From the NCBI GenBank assembly GCA_947503885.1, contig CANNFD010000008.1, forward strand, positions 1 through 64,000: a stretch of DNA of 64,000 nt. Reading direction: 5' to 3'. How positions within the stretch are numbered: the stretch's first letter is position 1; the number at the start of each line of letters is the position of its first letter. A program made the translations under genes and the position numbers. The notes under the pieces were generated by a model that did no database searches, was not told where the DNA came from, and saw only the letters and a program-made list of their open reading frames with translations. Below are positions 1 to 11,789 of the stretch, piece after piece. Origin of the DNA: an uncultured Olleya sp. Lineage in GTDB: Bacteria; Bacteroidota; Bacteroidia; Flavobacteriales; Flavobacteriaceae.

Positions 1-186
1 GTGGATTGCCTTATGATGAAAACTTTGTTTCAAAATTAGCTTAAAATTGCTTGTTTTTTAACTCAGTTCTTTGTTAGCTTTTAGTGCTTTTTTGTCCGCT
101 TAATATTTCATTCCGAATTTTTATTTTTTCGTTAATTTTCGGATTCAGAGTTTCAGTGAATTCGGCAGTTTTCGATTCTGCAATGT

Positions 187-296
187 TTTCAATTCAGATT
201 TGAGTGAACAATTCCGCAACTTGCTAAATTCCGATTGAGTGAGATTCCGAGTTTTTAATTCAGTTTTCGATTCCACAAACGAGTTAAAAAGTCAAG
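187..296. repeat. Repeat family B, copy 1 (~100-110 bp, imperfect)
   Basis: Aligns with 6076-6178: shared 'TTTTCAATTC', 'ATTCCGCAACTTGCTAAA', 'TTCAGTTTTCGATTCC.CA.ACGAG.TAAAA.GTCAA'; both copies directly follow the stop codon of a minus-strand ORF. Confidence 0.75.
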
Positions 297-304
297 AATT
301 TTTT

Positions 305-535
305 CTAAGTTAAACTAGCATTATTTGTCTTTTGTAATTTCTGTTTTCTTCCAATAATAAAATATAACAGAGCACCTAAAAAGTTCCCAAGTAAAACAAC
401 TAAAAGCCATACGATTTTGTTATTTCTAGAAAATTCATTTCTTACAATATCAATGAGCGCAACAATCGTTAGTATTATACCAAGAAATACAGTTATTAAT
501 ATTAGAATTATTTGCCAAGGTTCAATCAAGTTCAT
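305..535 (-). CDS. Small two-TM protein, PLDc_N-like (phospholipase D-nuclease N-terminal type)
   Basis: 76 aa; 'VWLLVVLLGNFLGALLYFIIGRKQ' resembles the PLDc_N signature; lies inside the cassette array. Confidence 0.55.
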   Translation of the reverse strand: MNLIEPWQIILILITVFLGIILTIVALIDIVRNEFSRNNKIVWLLVVLLGNFLGALLYFIIGRKQKLQKTNNASLT

Positions 536-577
536 AATTTGTATTTTAATTTTTATTCGTAATTTTTGTCCAGCATT

Positions 578-713
578 AAAGCTAACGTGTTTGTATATGG
601 TTTGTTGCGTGGTTAAGCAACTAAGTTAACAAATAAAAACCGAATAGAAAATCCGCGAGGATTTTCGTAAGTAGGCTAGAACCAAGCAATAAATTATATA
701 CGGTGTTGTAAGC
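578..713 (-). repeat. attC-like palindromic element 1
   Basis: AAAGCTAAC...GTATATGG..TTGC...GAAAATCC-GCGA-GGATTTTC...GCAA..ATATACGGTGTTGTAAGC; same architecture as five other elements. Confidence 0.85.
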
Positions 714-721
714 AGTTTTTT

Positions 722-1438
722 TTAATTCGTTTGTAAATAACAATTGTCTTTCAGATGGATTTTTTCTCCGTCATAAAAATCAATTTCTTTAATTAAATCT
801 TCAATGTATTTCAATTCATTTATTGGACAAATTTTCAAAAATATTTTGTTTAATAGTAATTTTCCTGTGTCATAATCGTAAATTGAAATTTGAGCATTGT
901 TTTTGTGATTGTGAATAGAGTTGATTAAAAACCAATTCAGTTTATCTTCTTTTCCAGCCAAAAATGCATTTTCTGGAATTCCGCCAACTCTTTTTACTAA
1001 TTTTCCATTTATATTTTCCGCTAAAACATTAGTTCCATTTTCGGTTTTGATGAATTTCGCACTTTCTTTTGATATTAAATTTCTCAAATTTGAAAAATCA
1101 CCAATTCCTCTTGAAACTTCTGAAATCTTAACAGACTTTCCGTTTTTTAAGAAAACTAAAAGATTGATTGAATCATCATATTCTATTCCATTTTCTCTTA
1201 TGTTTTCCAAGTCTAAATTCAATTCTTTTTCTATGTTGTCGACTACAGAATATGGTCCAAGAATTAATAGATTATCCCAATCAAATTCATTAAAATTCTT
1301 TAAGTCTATTATTTCCGATTCCGATTTGAATTCCGTTTCAATTTTTTCAGTCAGCGAATTGTCCGAACTCAATTGGTTTAAGTATTCACAAGAAAATAAA
1401 GTTGAAAATATTATTCCAATTATTATCAGTTTTCTCAT
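722..1438 (-). CDS. Hypothetical lipoprotein, cassette cargo
   Basis: 238 aa, N-terminal lipobox-like 'IFSTLFSC'; 16-nt leader to the upstream element boundary and 14 nt from stop to the next element. Confidence 0.7.
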   Translation of the reverse strand: MRKLIIIGIIFSTLFSCEYLNQLSSDNSLTEKIETEFKSESEIIDLKNFNEFDWDNLLILGPYSVVDNIEKELNLDLENIRENGIEYDDSINLLVFLKNGKSVKISEVSRGIGDFSNLRNLISKESAKFIKTENGTNVLAENINGKLVKRVGGIPENAFLAGKEDKLNWFLINSIHNHKNNAQISIYDYDTGKLLLNKIFLKICPINELKYIEDLIKEIDFYDGEKIHLKDNCYLQTN

Positions 1439-1448
1439 TTCTCAAATT

Positions 1449-1583
1449 GCTTACAACGGTTTTGTATATGATACGTTGCGTGGATTAACACGTAACTTAG
1501 CAAATAAAAACCGAATAGAAAATCCGCGAGGATTTTCGTAAGTAAGCTCTCATTAGCAATGGATTATATACGTTGTTGCCCAC
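1449..1583 (-). repeat. attC-like palindromic element 2
   Basis: GCTTACAACGGTTTTGTATATG...GAAAATCCGCGAGGATTTTC...TATATACGTTGTTGCCCAC. Confidence 0.85.
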
Positions 1584-1599
1584 AGTTATTTTTCTATGA

Positions 1600-2484
1600 T
1601 TATTTGAATAATTCTGTACTATCTCTACGTGCTAACCACAGAGTATGCTCTCTTGAAATAGCTGTTTCTGCATCGTCGACAAAATTTTCAAAATCTGATT
1701 CGTTTTTTATGTGTCTAACTTTTGATTTTATTAAATTCAATTCAGTTGCCGTTATTCCATAAGATTCGGTTAATTCTTGAAACCTTTTTAGTTGTAGCCA
1801 AGCAATAAAAGATGAAGCAAGACAAGCCATCAGAGGTGTTGTTAAAAAATCAATAACTCCGTAAAAGTCAAGAACTAATGAAACTATTGCTAAAACCTGA
1901 AAAGTTATTATTGCACCAAATGACAAATTCTTGTTTTTTCGATTTTCTTTTGATTTATCATAGTACCATTTTCTTTGTTTTTCAAGTCTTTGTGTACTAT
2001 AAAAATCTATTTTTTCATTTAAATCTAATTTTCTCAATTGAACCATTGATTTGGTTATTTGGTCTCCTTCGCCGAATTCCTCTCCAATCAATTGGAAAAA
2101 TTCTTTCTTTTGTCCAATAATTTGTTTTAAATTTTTTATTAATTTTTCTTCAGCATCGCTTGATTTTAGTTTAAAACTAAATGGTTTAGTTCCTGTAATA
2201 AACTTCCAAGTAAGCGATTTTGCACTTTCCGCTATTGCTCTTCCATCATACCAAGTTTTTTCTGGTTGAAAAACCATAATCAAAATCGTGAGAAGTAAGG
2301 AAATAACAAGTAAAATACTTGAGATTAATGTTATCCAACCATTATCTGTTTTTATTGAAGAAACAAAGGTTGATACAACTAAAAGAATTAAAATTCCTCT
2401 ATTTAAATTGATGAAATTCTTTTGTGCAGTAATAGATTTACTGTCTGATTTTTCAAAGATTGTTGGATATTTAAGTTCAGTCAT
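1600..2484 (-). CDS. DUF4231 / SLATT-like 2-TM protein, putative effector
   Basis: ~295 aa; two pairs of hydrophobic segments, 'KTWYDGRAIAESAKSLTWKFITGTKPF' typical of the DUF4231 family; ATG at 2484 overlaps the end of the TIR-like ORF. Confidence 0.7.
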   Translation of the reverse strand: MTELKYPTIFEKSDSKSITAQKNFINLNRGILILLVVSTFVSSIKTDNGWITLISSILLVISLLLTILIMVFQPEKTWYDGRAIAESAKSLTWKFITGTKPFSFKLKSSDAEEKLIKNLKQIIGQKKEFFQLIGEEFGEGDQITKSMVQLRKLDLNEKIDFYSTQRLEKQRKWYYDKSKENRKNKNLSFGAIITFQVLAIVSLVLDFYGVIDFLTTPLMACLASSFIAWLQLKRFQELTESYGITATELNLIKSKVRHIKNESDFENFVDDAETAISREHTLWLARRDSTELFK

Positions 2485-2989
2485 CAAGCCCTAATTTTTT
2501 ATATACTGATGCTGGATAGTGCCAATCATCACTTTTAGTTTTGTCAACACTATTATTGTAATATGTAGGCCAATAATCTAATGCATATTTTATCATTTTC
2601 ATCCTGAATGAAATATGAACTGCATTTTCTCCTTTTAAAATTGGCGGACAAAGTTTATTATCAATACTTCTTGTCTTATTTAAATTTGCAACAACAATTG
2701 GTAAATCAAGATTTTGAGATTGTTCTATTTCCCAACGAACAAATCGATAGAGATTTTTAGTTTTTTCTCCGACTAATACAACAACTTGTTTGGCATTTTT
2801 AATACGTTCTAATAAACGACCTTTTATATAAGCTTCGCTTTTAGCTTGTTTAGTTAAAGGTTTTAAATCGTGAGCATCAATAAAGTTGAAATCAATGTTT
2901 TTCAAAGCTTTCCAGCCTTTCATTCGAGCGTAAGCCCACATATCATTATCTCCATCAAATATTACATATGTTTTATTTCTGTATGCCAT
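2477..2989 (-). CDS. TIR-like (MTH538/DUF1863, ThsB-type) domain protein
   Basis: 170 aa; 'YVIFDGDNDMWAYARMKGWK', 'VVVLVGEKTKNLYRFVRWEIEQSQNLDLPIVVANLN' typical of TIR-like ThsB family folds. Confidence 0.75.
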   Translation of the reverse strand: MAYRNKTYVIFDGDNDMWAYARMKGWKALKNIDFNFIDAHDLKPLTKQAKSEAYIKGRLLERIKNAKQVVVLVGEKTKNLYRFVRWEIEQSQNLDLPIVVANLNKTRSIDNKLCPPILKGENAVHISFRMKMIKYALDYWPTYYNNSVDKTKSDDWHYPASVYKKLGLDD

Positions 2990-3004
2990 AGTTTTGTTTT
3001 AATT

Positions 3005-3140
3005 GTGGGCAACGTGTTTGTGTATGGTTAGTGGCGTGTTTAAGCACCTAATTTAGCAAATAAAAACCGAATAGAAAATCCGCGAGGATTTTCGTAAGTA
3101 GGCGAGGACTAGCCATTAATTATACACGTTGTTGTAGCTA
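3005..3140 (-). repeat. attC-like palindromic element 3
   Basis: GTGGGCAACGTGTTTGTGTATGG..TGGC...GAAAATCCGCGAGGATTTTC...GCCA..ATACACGTTGTTGTAGCTA; compensatory TGGC/GCCA and GTGTAT/ATACAC. Confidence 0.85.
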
Positions 3141-3144
3141 GTTA

Positions 3145-4299
3145 TTATAATTGTTCTATTAGTTTCTTTATTCTTTCAAATTGATTGTCTTTCTCTAAAG
3201 GATTGATTTTGTTAAATGATAACTGTGAAATATTTTGGTTTAAAATTTTTATTTTATTCAACATTGGAATTATATATTTCATAAAATGACTAAAGTGCTG
3301 TTCAATGTCGGAATAGTTTGAAGCTAATTTATAACCTGGTTTTCCAGAATGACTAATAATAAATAATCCTTCATATCTTAAATCTCTAATTAATAATCTA
3401 AGTTTATCTTCCGTTATTGTTTTTGAGAAGTTTTTTAAAAAATTAATTAATTCGTAACTAGGAACAAGTCTTTCCGAATCAATTTTTGAATTTGTATATA
3501 GATATTCCAATAGTCTTCTTTTTAGAGCATCTTCACTCTTTTTAGAATTTTCTAAATAGTTTTTTAATGATTCAAGGTTTAATTGACTTATTTCCTTACT
3601 TAAAGTTTTAGTTTTTTTAATTTCTTTATTGCTAATTTTTAAATATGGATAATAACTAACAGACATTCTTGTGTGTAGAATTTCGTAAATTTTAGAACTT
3701 TCAGAATTGTAATGACTTAAACAAAAAAGTCGACCTAAAGAACCAGCTATTATATCAGCTAGTTGAACTAATTTTTCATCTGTTTTGTCATCTGAGAGCT
3801 CAAAAGTTCTATCAGGATTAAATAAATCTCTTTGAGTTCCATTATTATCTATGAAATTAAGTAACTCAGTTCTGAAATCATCAGAGCCTAATTTGTCTAA
3901 ATAAATGTTATATGAGCTATAAACTTGATTATATTTTCTGATTAGTACTTTTTGAAAATATTTATAGAATGTTTTTTTAAACCTTAAACCACCTTCATCT
4001 TTATCTAATTTATCTTTGTCAATTACTAAAACGTCAATTGAGAAGTCTAAATTTTCTATTAAGTAATTTAGAATATCTAGTCTTTTTTGAAAATATTTTT
4101 TGTCTCCAATATTTTTTGATTTAATATCATTTCCTAATCTGAATTTTTTACATATTTCTTTTCGTAGGATTCTTGCATTGTTTACTTCAGATTCTGGTAT
4201 AATTACAGACGCATATACAAAATGGCTAAATGTTCCTTTTTTAGAAAGGTCTAAATGCGAATTTCCAAATTCATCGATAAATATTTTCGCTTTTTCCAA
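3145..4299 (-). CDS. DUF3800 domain-containing protein
   Basis: 384 aa; N-terminal 'IFIDEFGNSHLD' and 'LVQLADIIAGSLGR' are DUF3800 hallmarks (RNase H-like fold). Confidence 0.8.
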   Translation of the reverse strand: MEKAKIFIDEFGNSHLDLSKKGTFSHFVYASVIIPESEVNNARILRKEICKKFRLGNDIKSKNIGDKKYFQKRLDILNYLIENLDFSIDVLVIDKDKLDKDEGGLRFKKTFYKYFQKVLIRKYNQVYSSYNIYLDKLGSDDFRTELLNFIDNNGTQRDLFNPDRTFELSDDKTDEKLVQLADIIAGSLGRLFCLSHYNSESSKIYEILHTRMSVSYYPYLKISNKEIKKTKTLSKEISQLNLESLKNYLENSKKSEDALKRRLLEYLYTNSKIDSERLVPSYELINFLKNFSKTITEDKLRLLIRDLRYEGLFIISHSGKPGYKLASNYSDIEQHFSHFMKYIIPMLNKIKILNQNISQLSFNKINPLEKDNQFERIKKLIEQL

Positions 4300-4313
4300 G
4301 GTTCGTCTTTAAT

Positions 4314-4451
4314 TAGCTACAACGGTTTTGTGTATGATTTCGTTGCGTGGTTTAAGCATTAAAGTTAGCAAATAAATCACAGATAGAAAGTCCGCGAGGA
4401 CTTTCGTAAGTAGGCTATAACTAGCAATGAATTATACACGGTGTTGGCAAT
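4314..4451 (-). repeat. attC-like palindromic element 4
   Basis: TAGCTACAACGG...GTGTAT...GAAAGTCC-GCGA-GGACTTTC...ATACACGGTGTTGGCAAT; A-T to G-C covariation in the central hairpin. Confidence 0.85.
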
Positions 4452-4457
4452 AGTATT

Positions 4458-4637
4458 TTATATTCCACGATTCATTTGGTTCTGTTCTATGTCTCTTTTT
4501 TGTTTTATTCTTTCTATTTGAGCTTTCTTATTTCCAAACTTTTTATGGTAAGGTAATGGTTTGTCAAATTCCTTATCGACTTCTCCAAGAACGATACCTT
4601 TTATCCATTTGTTCAGTTTTTTAATTAATTTCCTCAA
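4458..4637 (-). CDS. Small hypothetical protein, TTG start (LRKLIKKLNKWIKGIVLGEVDKEFDKPLPYHKKFGNKKAQIERIKQKRDIEQNQMNRGI)
   Basis: Open frame translated by hand between the 4644 stop and element 4; fills the cassette up to 12 nt from the element; too short for the supplied track. Confidence 0.4.
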   Translation of the reverse strand: MRKLIKKLNKWIKGIVLGEVDKEFDKPLPYHKKFGNKKAQIERIKQKRDIEQNQMNRGI

Positions 4638-4643
4638 GTTAAT

Positions 4644-5003
4644 TTAGTTTTTTAAAGATTTTAGAGTGTCAGTTTCCGGCATTTCTGTAATTCCAGATTC
4701 TCCATCTATTGAGTAGAATTCCAATTCAGTTGGCATTTGGTCAGTTCCGAATACAGATATTCCAATTAATTCTCCGTTTTTACCTTTTCCTGTGTAATCA
4801 ATTATTAAATTTCCTTTTTGAATTTCCGAGTCAAATGTTTTTCCAAACATTATAGTCAGACATTTTCCGCAACCACATCTTGCAATAACTTTCAGATTTC
4901 CGATTAAATTAGTCCATTCAGATTTTTCTTTTCCAAACAGATAAGTCAGAAATTCAATTTCCGATTTTGTCAATTCTCTTTTATCTGGAATGCTATATTT
5001 CAT
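4644..5003 (-). CDS. Hypothetical protein, cassette cargo
   Basis: 119 aa, Cys-rich 'RCGCGKC' motif; no family recognised. Confidence 0.65.
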   Translation of the reverse strand: MKYSIPDKRELTKSEIEFLTYLFGKEKSEWTNLIGNLKVIARCGCGKCLTIMFGKTFDSEIQKGNLIIDYTGKGKNGELIGISVFGTDQMPTELEFYSIDGESGITEMPETDTLKSLKN

Positions 5004-5040
5004 TAATCAAATTCTTGGTTTTTGACGTTCCGCTGATATT

Positions 5041-5177
5041 ATTGCCAACGGTTTTGTATAAGATTAGTTGCGGTTTTGTGTGCGAGGAATTTCCGAAGGA
5101 AATTCAGATGTAACAAAATTGCAACGACCTTTGATTAAGCCTAAAATAGCAATTAATTTTATACGTTGTTGTAGCAC
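5041..5177 (-). repeat. attC-like palindromic element 5 (divergent centre)
   Basis: ATTGCCAACGGTTTTGTATAAGATTAGTTGC...GAATTTCC-GAA-GGAAATTC...GCAATTAATTTTATACGTTGTTGTAGCAC. Confidence 0.8.
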
Positions 5178-5187
5178 GTTTTTATTT

Positions 5188-5649
5188 TTAAAATTCAGGG
5201 ATTCCTATATTCAAATAATATTCCTTTATTAATTCAGTTTGTGAAATTTCAAGAGTTTGTTCATCTCTTCCGTCAGCTTTCCATTTCGTTAGAGTATAAA
5301 GTTCAAATTCCTTTGTATTATTCATTCTAAAAGGTGTGATAGCTTTGCTGAAGTCAGTCCAAATTGTTATTTCAAGTTTTTCTAATTTATTCAAATCACA
5401 ATCGTGGTTTTTGAAATGTTCTGGTAACCAATTCAAATAGTCGTTCAGTAATTGTCTGCTTTCATTAGATTCCGCTTCTTTTGGTTTGATTTCCTTTTTT
5501 ATAAAATCAAAAGTCGCTTTGTTTTCTTTTTCGATTTTGTGTAACTCTATAAGTACATTTACAGCAAGTCTTCCACTTTTCATATAATCAATACTCATAA
5601 ATGAATGAGTAAAATTGTGAATTGCTGATTTATAATTTTTGTACTTCAT
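5188..5649 (-). CDS. Hypothetical protein, cassette cargo
   Basis: 153 aa; 22-nt leader to the element boundary; no family recognised. Confidence 0.65.
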   Translation of the reverse strand: MKYKNYKSAIHNFTHSFMSIDYMKSGRLAVNVLIELHKIEKENKATFDFIKKEIKPKEAESNESRQLLNDYLNWLPEHFKNHDCDLNKLEKLEITIWTDFSKAITPFRMNNTKEFELYTLTKWKADGRDEQTLEISQTELIKEYYLNIGIPEF

Positions 5650-5664
5650 AGGTTTTCCGCAAAT

Positions 5665-5802
5665 GTGCTACAACGGTTTTGTATATGGTTTGTTGCGTTG
5701 TTTAAGCAACTAATTTAGCAAATAAAAACCGAATAGAAAATCCGCGAGGATTTTCGGAAGTAGGCAAGAACCAAGCAATAAATTATATACGGTGTTAGCA
5801 TT
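5665..5802 (-). repeat. attC-like palindromic element 6
   Basis: GTGCTACAACGGTTTTGTATATGG...GAAAATCCGCGAGGATTTTC...ATATACGGTGTTAGCATT. Confidence 0.85.
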
Positions 5803-5874
5803 TCGTTGTTTTTATTCAGATTTATATTTTCAATTCAATAATTGTAAAATGTTCAATTCCTTTAAAATCGGTAG

Positions 5875-6063
5875 TTATTTCTTTTTAACAAGAAAAAGAC
5901 CAAATACAGTTAAACCAATGCATACTGAAATAGTTATAGAATTACCAATCATTGGCAGAACGTTAAAGTCTATACAATCTAATTCGCCTTGTCTTTTACC
6001 TCTAAAAAAAGCAAAGACTAAAGATGTTAATATGAATGTATATCCAAAGATTTTTTTTATCAT
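5875..6063 (-). CDS. Small membrane protein
   Basis: 62 aa, two predicted TM segments. Confidence 0.5.
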   Translation of the reverse strand: MIKKIFGYTFILTSLVFAFFRGKRQGELDCIDFNVLPMIGNSITISVCIGLTVFGLFLVKKK

Positions 6064-6075
6064 AAATAATTTGTC

Positions 6076-6178
6076 TTTTCAATTCCGATTGAGTGAGTAA
6101 TTCCGCAACTTGCTAAACTCCGAATTTAGTTTTGTTTTTCAATTCAGTTTCCGATTCCGCAGACGAGCTAAAAGTCAA
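6076..6178. repeat. Repeat family B, copy 2
   Basis: Partner of 187-296; sits between the two ORFs of the last cassette. Confidence 0.75.
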
Positions 6179-6193
6179 TCGTTTTATTTTAAA

Positions 6194-6454
6194 TCACTCT
6201 TTTTTATATTTTTTGTGTTCTATTTTCTTTTTTTCTAAAATCGCATAAAATTTTCGTGGCGAGATTTTTAAGTCTTTTGTTATTTCATTCACTTTTTTCT
6301 TTCCTTTTTTATACAGATTTAAATTCTCGTTTACTTTTTTGTCAAAGTAATGTTTTTCCAGTCTCTCAACGATTTGTAATTCAGTCAGATTTGAGTCATT
6401 CGCATATTTTTCAATTTCCGATTTAATGTCTTTTAAATTACTCATAATTATCAT
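6194..6454 (-). CDS. Small basic hypothetical protein, possibly helix-turn-helix
   Basis: 86 aa; 'VNEITKDLKISPRKFYAILEKKKI' looks HTH-like; alternative start at 6445. Confidence 0.5.
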   Translation of the reverse strand: MIIMSNLKDIKSEIEKYANDSNLTELQIVERLEKHYFDKKVNENLNLYKKGKKKVNEITKDLKISPRKFYAILEKKKIEHKKYKKE

Positions 6455-6475
6455 TTTTAACGGTTCTGCTCAATG

Positions 6476-6500
6476 AATGCTAACTAGTTATATGAGGATA
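6476..6500 (-). other. Array terminus: half-site with boundary arm and CATATA motif, attI-like candidate
   Basis: AATGCTAACTAGTTATATGAGG: arm is the reverse complement of GTTAGCATT (5794-5802); reads CATATAACTAGTTAGC on the minus strand versus CATATACAAAACCGTTG in the full elements. Confidence 0.5.
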
Positions 6501-6639
6501 AATATATAGTATTTTATTCTAATTTATTCCATTTTGGAATGATAAGAGGAACTTTTGTTCCTGTTTACGTGATTTTGATAATAGAGTAAAACAGTTAATT
6601 GTTAACCTAATGTGTCTACTTAAATTATAATTATTAAGT

Positions 6640-11067: not shown

Positions 11068-11097
11068 TTTGCAATTACTAATAGTAATTAAACACTA

Positions 11098-11138
11098 AAA
11101 AAAAAGCATCAAAATAAATTTATTTTGATGCTTTTTTT
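11098..11138. terminator. Bidirectional intrinsic terminator
   Basis: AAAAGCATCAAAATAAATTTATTTTGATGCTTTTTTT between convergent genes. Confidence 0.9.
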
Positions 11139-11156
11139 ATTGGTAGTACTCTAAAA

Positions 11157-11789
11157 CTAGACTTCAATTTTCTTTAGTTCTTTGTAGTTTTTGTTTAAAC
11201 GTTTTAATAAAATACCATATATTAATTTGTAGAATAGCCATATTATAGTGACAAAAACTATTGTAAACAAAGCAAATATCCCAATCATGGTTAAAAACTG
11301 AGCGTTGTTAAAATGTTCAATTTTTTCAATTAAAATAGGATCGTGTTTACTAGTATAATAAAATGCAAAAATCATTGATACCGATGCCATAATTAGATTA
11401 TATAGTACATAGTATTTGATGATTTTTCTGGTTTTTAAAATGTTTTTCATTAAACGTCTAGCGTTGTCCGTAACAGAAATTGATTTATGGGATTTGTATA
11501 ATAAATACACAAAAACCATAATAATAGCATAAGACAATACGCTTAAAATAATAAACGTGTTACTGGTGTACATCTCATCATGTTTGGCTCTGTAAGTGTC
11601 CGACATAAAAAAGGGTAAGGTGTTAATTATAATCCAAAACACCAGTTCTGCAACACTAATATAAAACAACGTCTTAACAATAGACGATGATTTTTTTAAT
11701 AGCATTGGATATATTTGGTTAGCAGATTTTTTTTCAAATTTATCTTCGCTTTTAACCCAATCTTTTTTCAATAATTCTAATTCATCCAT
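11157..11789 (-). CDS. Membrane protein co-transcribed with ECF sigma, putative anti-sigma partner
   Basis: 210 aa, four TM segments; 3 nt after the sigma gene. Confidence 0.6.
   Translation of the reverse strand: MDELELLKKDWVKSEDKFEKKSANQIYPMLLKKSSSIVKTLFYISVAELVFWIIINTLPFFMSDTYRAKHDEMYTSNTFIILSVLSYAIIMVFVYLLYKSHKSISVTDNARRLMKNILKTRKIIKYYVLYNLIMASVSMIFAFYYTSKHDPILIEKIEHFNNAQFLTMIGIFALFTIVFVTIIWLFYKLIYGILLKRLNKNYKELKKIEV

Follow-up and report, generated by a model that had tools for sequence, protein, structure and literature searches.

Here, we describe the left part of a 64,000-nt stretch of DNA (the window) from an uncultured Olleya sp. (Flavobacteriaceae; assembly GCA_947503885.1, contig CANNFD010000008.1, positions 1 to 64,000, forward strand). 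The window is the start of this contig, which is labelled C8 below (window = C8:1-64000). Six elements of 123-125 bp, each running from AAC to GTT, alternate in it with seven minus-strand gene cassettes. It is very likely that these elements are the recombination sites of a divergent, integron-like chromosomal cassette system whose integrase is encoded elsewhere in the genome. In the terms used for integrons, the elements correspond to attC sites, and a further unit at the end of the array corresponds to attI, the site beside the integrase gene. The features are as follows.

1-75, plus strand: e0, a seventh attC-like element, right end only (cut by the contig start), with GTT at 73-75
76-583, minus strand: cassette A, encoding a 76-amino-acid (aa) PLDc_N-type membrane protein (open reading frame, ORF, 305-535)
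584-707, plus strand: attC-like element e1, with the plus strand as the folded strand
708-1454, minus strand: cassette B, encoding a 238-aa putative lipoprotein (ORF 722-1438)
1455-1577, plus strand: attC-like element e2
1578-3010, minus strand: cassette C, two overlapping genes encoding a ThsB-type TIR protein (2477-2989) and a SLATT_1/SLATT_3 two-transmembrane protein (1600-2487)
3011-3133, plus strand: attC-like element e3
3134-4320, minus strand: cassette D, encoding a DUF3800 protein (ORF 3145-4299)
4321-4445, plus strand: attC-like element e4, whose L stem has an additional base in its left arm
4446-5046, minus strand: cassette E, with ORFs of 119 aa and 59 aa without assigned function
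5047-5170, plus strand: attC-like element e5, in which the terminal structure differs (variable terminal structure, VTS, type B)
5171-5671, minus strand: cassette F, with an ORF of 153 aa
5672-5796, plus strand: attC-like element e6
5797-6481, minus strand: cassette G, the first after attI, with ORFs of 86 aa (6194-6454) and 62 aa (5875-6063)
6481-6584, minus strand: attI-like unit, 93% identical to C6:247766-247869 at the 3' end of the integrase gene on contig C6

An earlier, sequence-only reading of this DNA had recognized the six cores with their AAC starts and GTT ends as well as the minus-strand orientation of the ORFs, and both descriptions hold. It counted six elements, whereas a seventh one ends with the GTT at 73-75, and it took the right edge near 6485 for the end of a module, where the attI site actually lies. 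The complementary cassette ends that it noted are also present. The right ends of the modules (GTTGTAAGCA-G-TT, GTTGCCCACA-G-TT, and others) are complementary to the left ends over 10 nt; one conserved mismatch follows, which is a G.T wobble on the plus strand and an A.C clash on the minus strand, and then come 2-3 more pairs. For example, the two ends of cassette A, AGCTTTTAGTGC (76-87) and AGCATTAAAGCT (before 584), pair with a 1-nt bulge, and those of cassette G (GTTAGCATT) are complementary as well. A complementarity of 9-10 bp had been regarded as a departure from known integrons; this is mistaken because canonical attC sites have 9-11 nt (PMC2727003). The lack of a fit to GTTRRRY is real, as no boundary in the window matches it.

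The elements have the hairpin anatomy that the bottom strand of a canonical attC site has, namely an R stem, an unpaired spacer, an L stem, and a VTS. In each window element folding is better on the plus strand, which lies opposite to the genes, than on the minus strand. The R stem consists of 7 variable pairs and a wobble at position 8 (137 such wobbles, among cassettes having 8 or more pairs). The 16-bp L stem shows compensatory variation among the six window copies and can be recognized in 288 of 292 unique elements; the best fit is without a bulge in 199 of these 288, and about 87 have one left-arm bulge, mostly at positions 8-9. Wobbles in the L stem concentrate at positions 7, 8, 12, and 13 and almost always place G on the left and T on the right. 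They are found instead of the two or three extrahelical L-stem bases of canonical attC sites. Several terminal structures occur on the same arms within one genome, and in this variability the end of the hairpin resembles the VTS of attC (PMC2727003). The sites are mostly 121-128 bp long.

When searched by structure alone (AAC, 6 nt, and a 6-bp stem, then the returning stem, 3 nt, and GTT, with inner pairing), the window yields exactly these six elements and its reversed sequence yields none. The array loci, 607 kb in all, yield 253-256 matches, versus 0-1 in the reversed control. This search under-counted the arrays of Flavobacterium and of G114 (G-numbers denote other genomes) because of a bulged or shifted spacer, and the cassette statistics therefore include covariance-model matches as well. 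In 187 of 235 cassettes the two ends pair with each other at 6 bases or more, versus about 3.5% for the ends of different cassettes; in the same set, 16 boundaries match GTTRRRY.

The mobility of the modules can be read from 351 cassettes of array loci. These contain 533 pairs of near-identical cassette bodies, nearly all dispersed within one genome, and the 3' element is co-inherited (at least 90% identity) in 527 of them. In 365 pairs the 3' element is at least 90% identical and the 5' neighbour element less than 80%; the reverse occurs in none. Among 195 pairs of dispersed near-identical cassettes the breakpoints lie exactly at AAC, with an identity of 1.0 inside and 0.2-0.5 directly outside AAC, except for the invariant wobble base at -8. 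Judged from these alignments, the mobile unit is the gene plus its 3' element, which is how a cassette is defined in integrons, with the junction likewise at the R box. The longest ORF lies opposite to the folded strand in 239 of 240 cassettes, and the median cassette is 765 bp. As the sequence-only reading had anticipated, the modules move as units and break at the AAC/GTT boundary, and the elements form arrays beside a tyrosine recombinase rather than being scattered among core genes. In the genus of the host all 10 of 10 species have many elements, and only two share a cassette body and element with the window array: G441 has a copy of cassette B and e1 (71% identity), and G440 has part of cassette E and e5 (82% identity).

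A covariance model of the element (R1) finds about 40 elements in the 3.04-Mb host genome. They cluster in the last 11 kb of contig C1, at both ends of C8, at the end of C13, on C6, and over the whole of C18 and C21; contigs thus break within arrays, as is expected for repeats. This whole-genome search and a search for recombinases near other arrays had been proposed from the sequence alone, and they reveal several arrays and, on C6, a tyrosine recombinase beside elements. The earlier statement that no integrase is in view is correct for C8, which has no Phage_integrase match; in the whole genome seven proteins have Phage_integrase domains. The integrase gene occupies C6:246641-247831, and elements start downstream of it at 248360 and 249059 (about 530 and 1230 bp). 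The suggested likeness to CALIN elements (attC clusters without integrase) is therefore partial: the contig of the window array is without integrase, but the array has its own attI copy (6481-6584) and its cognate integrase is encoded on another contig, so that it does not fall under CALIN.

An attI-like site lies between the C6 integrase and its two elements, and a 104-bp copy of it (6481-6584) is found at the gene-proximal end of the window array; as in canonical integrons, attI stands beside the integrase with cassettes joined to it. The window copy contains the core ATATAACTAGTT (6493-6482), to which the cassette is joined at GTT 6484-6482, and the inverted repeat ACAGGAACAAAAGTTCCTCT. The copy at the C1 array (C1:494283-494400) is 95% identical to that of the window, and a more divergent one lies at a single-element site on C13 (about 22.6 kb). 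At 62 integrase loci, ...TATATTTG...ATATAACNAGTT comes after the stop codon, with the cassette start NNNNNNNA behind it, and the A at +8 of the first cassette is invariant. The -7 promoter box of Bacteroidota is TAnnTTTG. Since TATATTTG resembles this box, attI may carry the promoter of the array, and TATATTTA in the window attI is a possible -7 box.

Copies of attI also occur at loci free of integrase (C1:494283-494400, C13 at about 22.6 kb, C8:6481-6584, and G443:C32, G443 being a congener of the host). Some of these loci, although occupied in one species, are empty in congeners. The locus that follows the M3 peptidase gene has no element in 7 congeners with a long flank, is occupied in G443, and in the congener G447 ends with an attI-like repeat at the contig end.

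The C6 integrase scores 203.4 bits with TIGR02249 (integron integrase), below the cut-off of 265, and 174.6 and 173.2 bits with TIGR02224 and TIGR02225 (XerC/XerD), for which the cut-offs are 335 and 330; with the loosely named NF040815 it reaches 221 bits (cut-off 220). The catalytic residues (R, K, H, R, H, and Y) are the same in all of 22 orthologues. The distance from the catalytic K to HxxR is 65-66 aa, versus 106-107 in IntI1 and in IntI of sister classes of the phylum Bacteroidota and 69-71 in XerC. The short distance indicates that the I2-bearing region of about 41 residues, the additional domain specific to IntI, is absent, and the alignment to the Vibrio integron integrase (2A3V) has a gap against residues 183-243. 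At its N-terminus the protein has about 95 further residues, with a WS...WY motif, ahead of the XerD-aligned part, and the SPLD C-end is common to this family and IntI. In the tree the family (95/85) is placed beside, and outside, a fully supported IntI clade, and Xer is outside both; it thus forms a clade separate from XerC/XerD, with a branching order that is tentative because of long Xer branches and a small outgroup. An AlphaFold model of the Hanstruepera orthologue (mean predicted local distance difference test, pLDDT, 84.7) has its best TM-score with 2A3V (0.72 by target length), whereas in the Foldseek ranking by E-value XerA is first and Xer relatives lead.

The same association of integrase and elements is found widely in the family. 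Of the 151 Flavobacteriaceae genera sampled, each represented by one genome, 129 have elements; the genomes are related, and hence the counts are not independent. With integrase presence scored at E<=1e-30, 101 genomes have both integrase and element, 10 integrase only, 28 element only, and 12 neither, an association that is positive but confounded by kinship and weak integrase matches. Among the 44 integrase homologue loci whose 3' flank spans 1.5 kb or more, 35 have downstream elements, and the cassette genes are co-directional with the integrase at all 35 downstream arrays; in the named genomes the nearest elements are mostly 350-1700 bp downstream. Three loci (L108, L150, and L153) have a divergent array upstream, a layout typical of canonical integrons. 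In complete genomes of other genera, arrays of 50-100 or more cassettes lie beside the same integrase: about 76 kb beside the integrase at 242044-243192 in G114 (119 matches in two arrays), about 68 kb beside that at 2793655-2794794 in G014, which has a second array of 46 kb (104 matches in total), and about 60 kb beside that at 531368-532501 in G069. Hosts of integrase relatives include Hanstruepera flava, Algibacter mikhailovii, Psychroserpens, Polaribacter, Gillisia, Maribacter, Algoriphagus, Cyclobacterium, Kaistella, Flavobacterium, and an Ignavibacteria genome. More distant integrases (Flavobacterium and others) accompany elements of about 124 bp with a 7/3 instead of a 6/3 spacer. No element was found near the integrase homologue (39%) on a Persicobacter plasmid.

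The complementary ends of the cassettes, the mobility of AAC-bounded units, the conserved attI with an adjacent integrase, and the uniform orientation point to a widespread Bacteroidota variant that is integron-like in its anatomy and, as far as its recombination can be deduced from the products, in its workings. The two options of the sequence-only reading, a divergent integron with its integrase elsewhere or a distinct cassette system with folded sites, are both supported and merge into one. The system departs from canonical integrons in three defining characters (the I2 region, GTTRRRY, and the IntI cut-off) and for the most part in a fourth, the extrahelical bases.

Recombination in this system would proceed via the following steps. 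The integrase, presumably that of C6, would bind the hairpin that the strand opposite to the cassette genes is predicted to form when single-stranded in vivo. It would recognize the R stem of 7-10 module-specific bp with its position-8 wobble, the unpaired 6/3-nt spacer, the 16-bp L stem, and the variable terminal structure, and would cleave at AAC on the folded strand. The single-stranded cassette would then be joined to double-stranded attI (ATATAACNAGTT), and excision would occur by recombination between two elements. Genes would thereby enter next to the promoter, in one orientation, behind the probable attI promoter. Because the integrase is without I2 and most sites are without extrahelical bases, the polarised G.T wobbles, together with the asymmetric spacer, probably determine which strand is used. 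It is conceivable, and we propose it tentatively, that the lineage, with its strand choice by one-sided wobbles and asymmetric spacer, split off before canonical IntI gained I2, or that cassette recombination at folded sites arose independently.

An alternative is double-stranded, Xer-like recombination with two strand exchanges at AAC/GTT, in which the hairpin would be a vestige or a binding scaffold. The missing I2, the Xer-like spacing, and the leading Foldseek E-values of XerA and Xer relatives fit such a route, and CTX-phi uses a folded site with XerCD and no I2 (PMC4792948). It is unlikely nonetheless, since the L stem is so generally kept, the wobble polarity is one-sided, and the strand opposite to the genes folds better. 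The spacer at +4..+8, of which G114 has two alleles with identical cassettes, was considered as an Xer-like overlap region and rejected; in G014 it stays with the element in 61 of 61 cases, as for a single exchange at AAC.

Less probable still is an ordinary integron, with an integrase of the IntI family and canonical attC sites, that surveys overlooked. The plan is the shared one (integrase, attI, oriented cassettes, a bottom-strand hairpin of R stem, spacer, L stem, and VTS, and an AAC/GTT junction), the TIGR02249 score of 203 bits is above those for XerC/D, and the SPLD C-end is as in IntI. However, that score is below the cut-off of 265, the K-to-HxxR distance of 65-66 versus 106-107 aa leaves no place for the I2-bearing region, the integrase clade is outside IntI, and GTTRRRY fits 16 of 235 boundaries. 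Canonical IntI above the TIGR02249 cut-off is present in 84 of 297 genomes of the phylum, mostly outside the class of the window (e.g. G191, G178, and G185). That such sister-class IntI drives the elements was rejected: the IntI neighbourhoods examined contain no intact element, only one degenerate copy.

Shuffling by homologous recombination of near-identical repeats, without any site-specific enzyme, would suit elements that are long and similar within a genome, but it has very little in its favour when breakpoints are exact at AAC, the elements beside shared bodies differ strongly, attI and integrase are conserved beside arrays, and own-end complementarity would have no role. A structured non-coding RNA or transcript terminator, to which the apical GCGA tetraloop and the G.U-type pairs on the plus strand might belong, is equally improbable: a search of Rfam up to E=1 returned nothing, the strand that folds is antisense to the genes, the units are mobile, and the terminal structure is free to vary while the recombination arms are kept.

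Several observations weigh against a divergent integron-like system of this kind. Elements without an integrase match occur in 28 of the 151 genomes, and the reverse in 10, and several arrays, that of the window included, are far from the integrase. In addition, cassette bodies shared across genera (window 5171-5671 with G069, and C21 with G114) keep their ends and yet have a different 3' element: cassette F is about 89.5% identical to two G069 cassettes, with identical ends and a different 3' element. Simple mobility of body plus element does not explain these cases.

Among known systems, the closest are the sedentary chromosomal integrons, or superintegrons (Vibrio cholerae), which likewise have large oriented arrays, attI beside the integrase gene, hairpin sites opposite to the genes, AAC/GTT junctions, cassettes made of a gene and its 3' site, and cargo that is mostly unknown or defence-like. 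In contrast to these, the present integrase is without the I2 region and has an extra N-terminal domain, the R boxes are not GTTRRRY, extrahelical bases are few, sites are mostly 121-128 bp, the attI core is ATATAACNAGTT, and attI copies occur at integrase-free loci. Treponema integrons have a recognised IntI, whereas the present integrase is outside the IntI clade. XerCD-dependent modules and phages such as CTX-phi share a tyrosine recombinase without I2 and a site that is single-stranded and folded (predicted here), but are without a dedicated array-adjacent recombinase and long sites with R, L, and VTS parts.

According to IntegronFinder 2.0, Bacteroidetes earlier had only integrase-only In0, plus one complete Salinibacter integron (PMC9024848). 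Because surveys take the additional domain as the definition of IntI, they would exclude the present integrase family by design. No report of such arrays was found in the open-access literature searched, subscription papers and preprints being outside the search. As both integrase and sites fail current models, a large reservoir of mobile genes in marine and environmental bacteria has apparently been missed: 129 of the 151 family genera sampled have elements, and the arrays extend to about 80 kb. Canonical integrons have two hallmarks that are regarded as co-evolved, the I2 domain and the extrahelical bases, and their origin is a stated chicken-and-egg paradox (PMC4792948). A system that apparently does the job of an integron without either makes this question directly testable, and a pre-I2 or independent lineage, if true, would be a living example of the paradox state.

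The compact TIR/SLATT pair of cassette C (1600-2989) is probably anti-phage defence cargo. Viral contigs scanned for the common-core pattern gave no match; in Winogradskyella phage Peternella_1, two elements lie about 240 bp from each other (L288:2982-3469; NC_062754.1 about 11081-11568), and phages may thus ferry cassettes. The change of 3' element between genera bears on how cassettes acquire their sites and is opposite to the rule within genomes. In G114, many copies of a cassette of about 430-460 bp that has a site type of its own are found across two arrays 1.6 Mb apart (L085-L090). A pair of 35-38 nt repeats (AATTCCGCAACTTGCTAAA ... GATTCCACAAACGAGTTAAAA) is common to two cassettes of the window, at 200-289 and 6089-6173.

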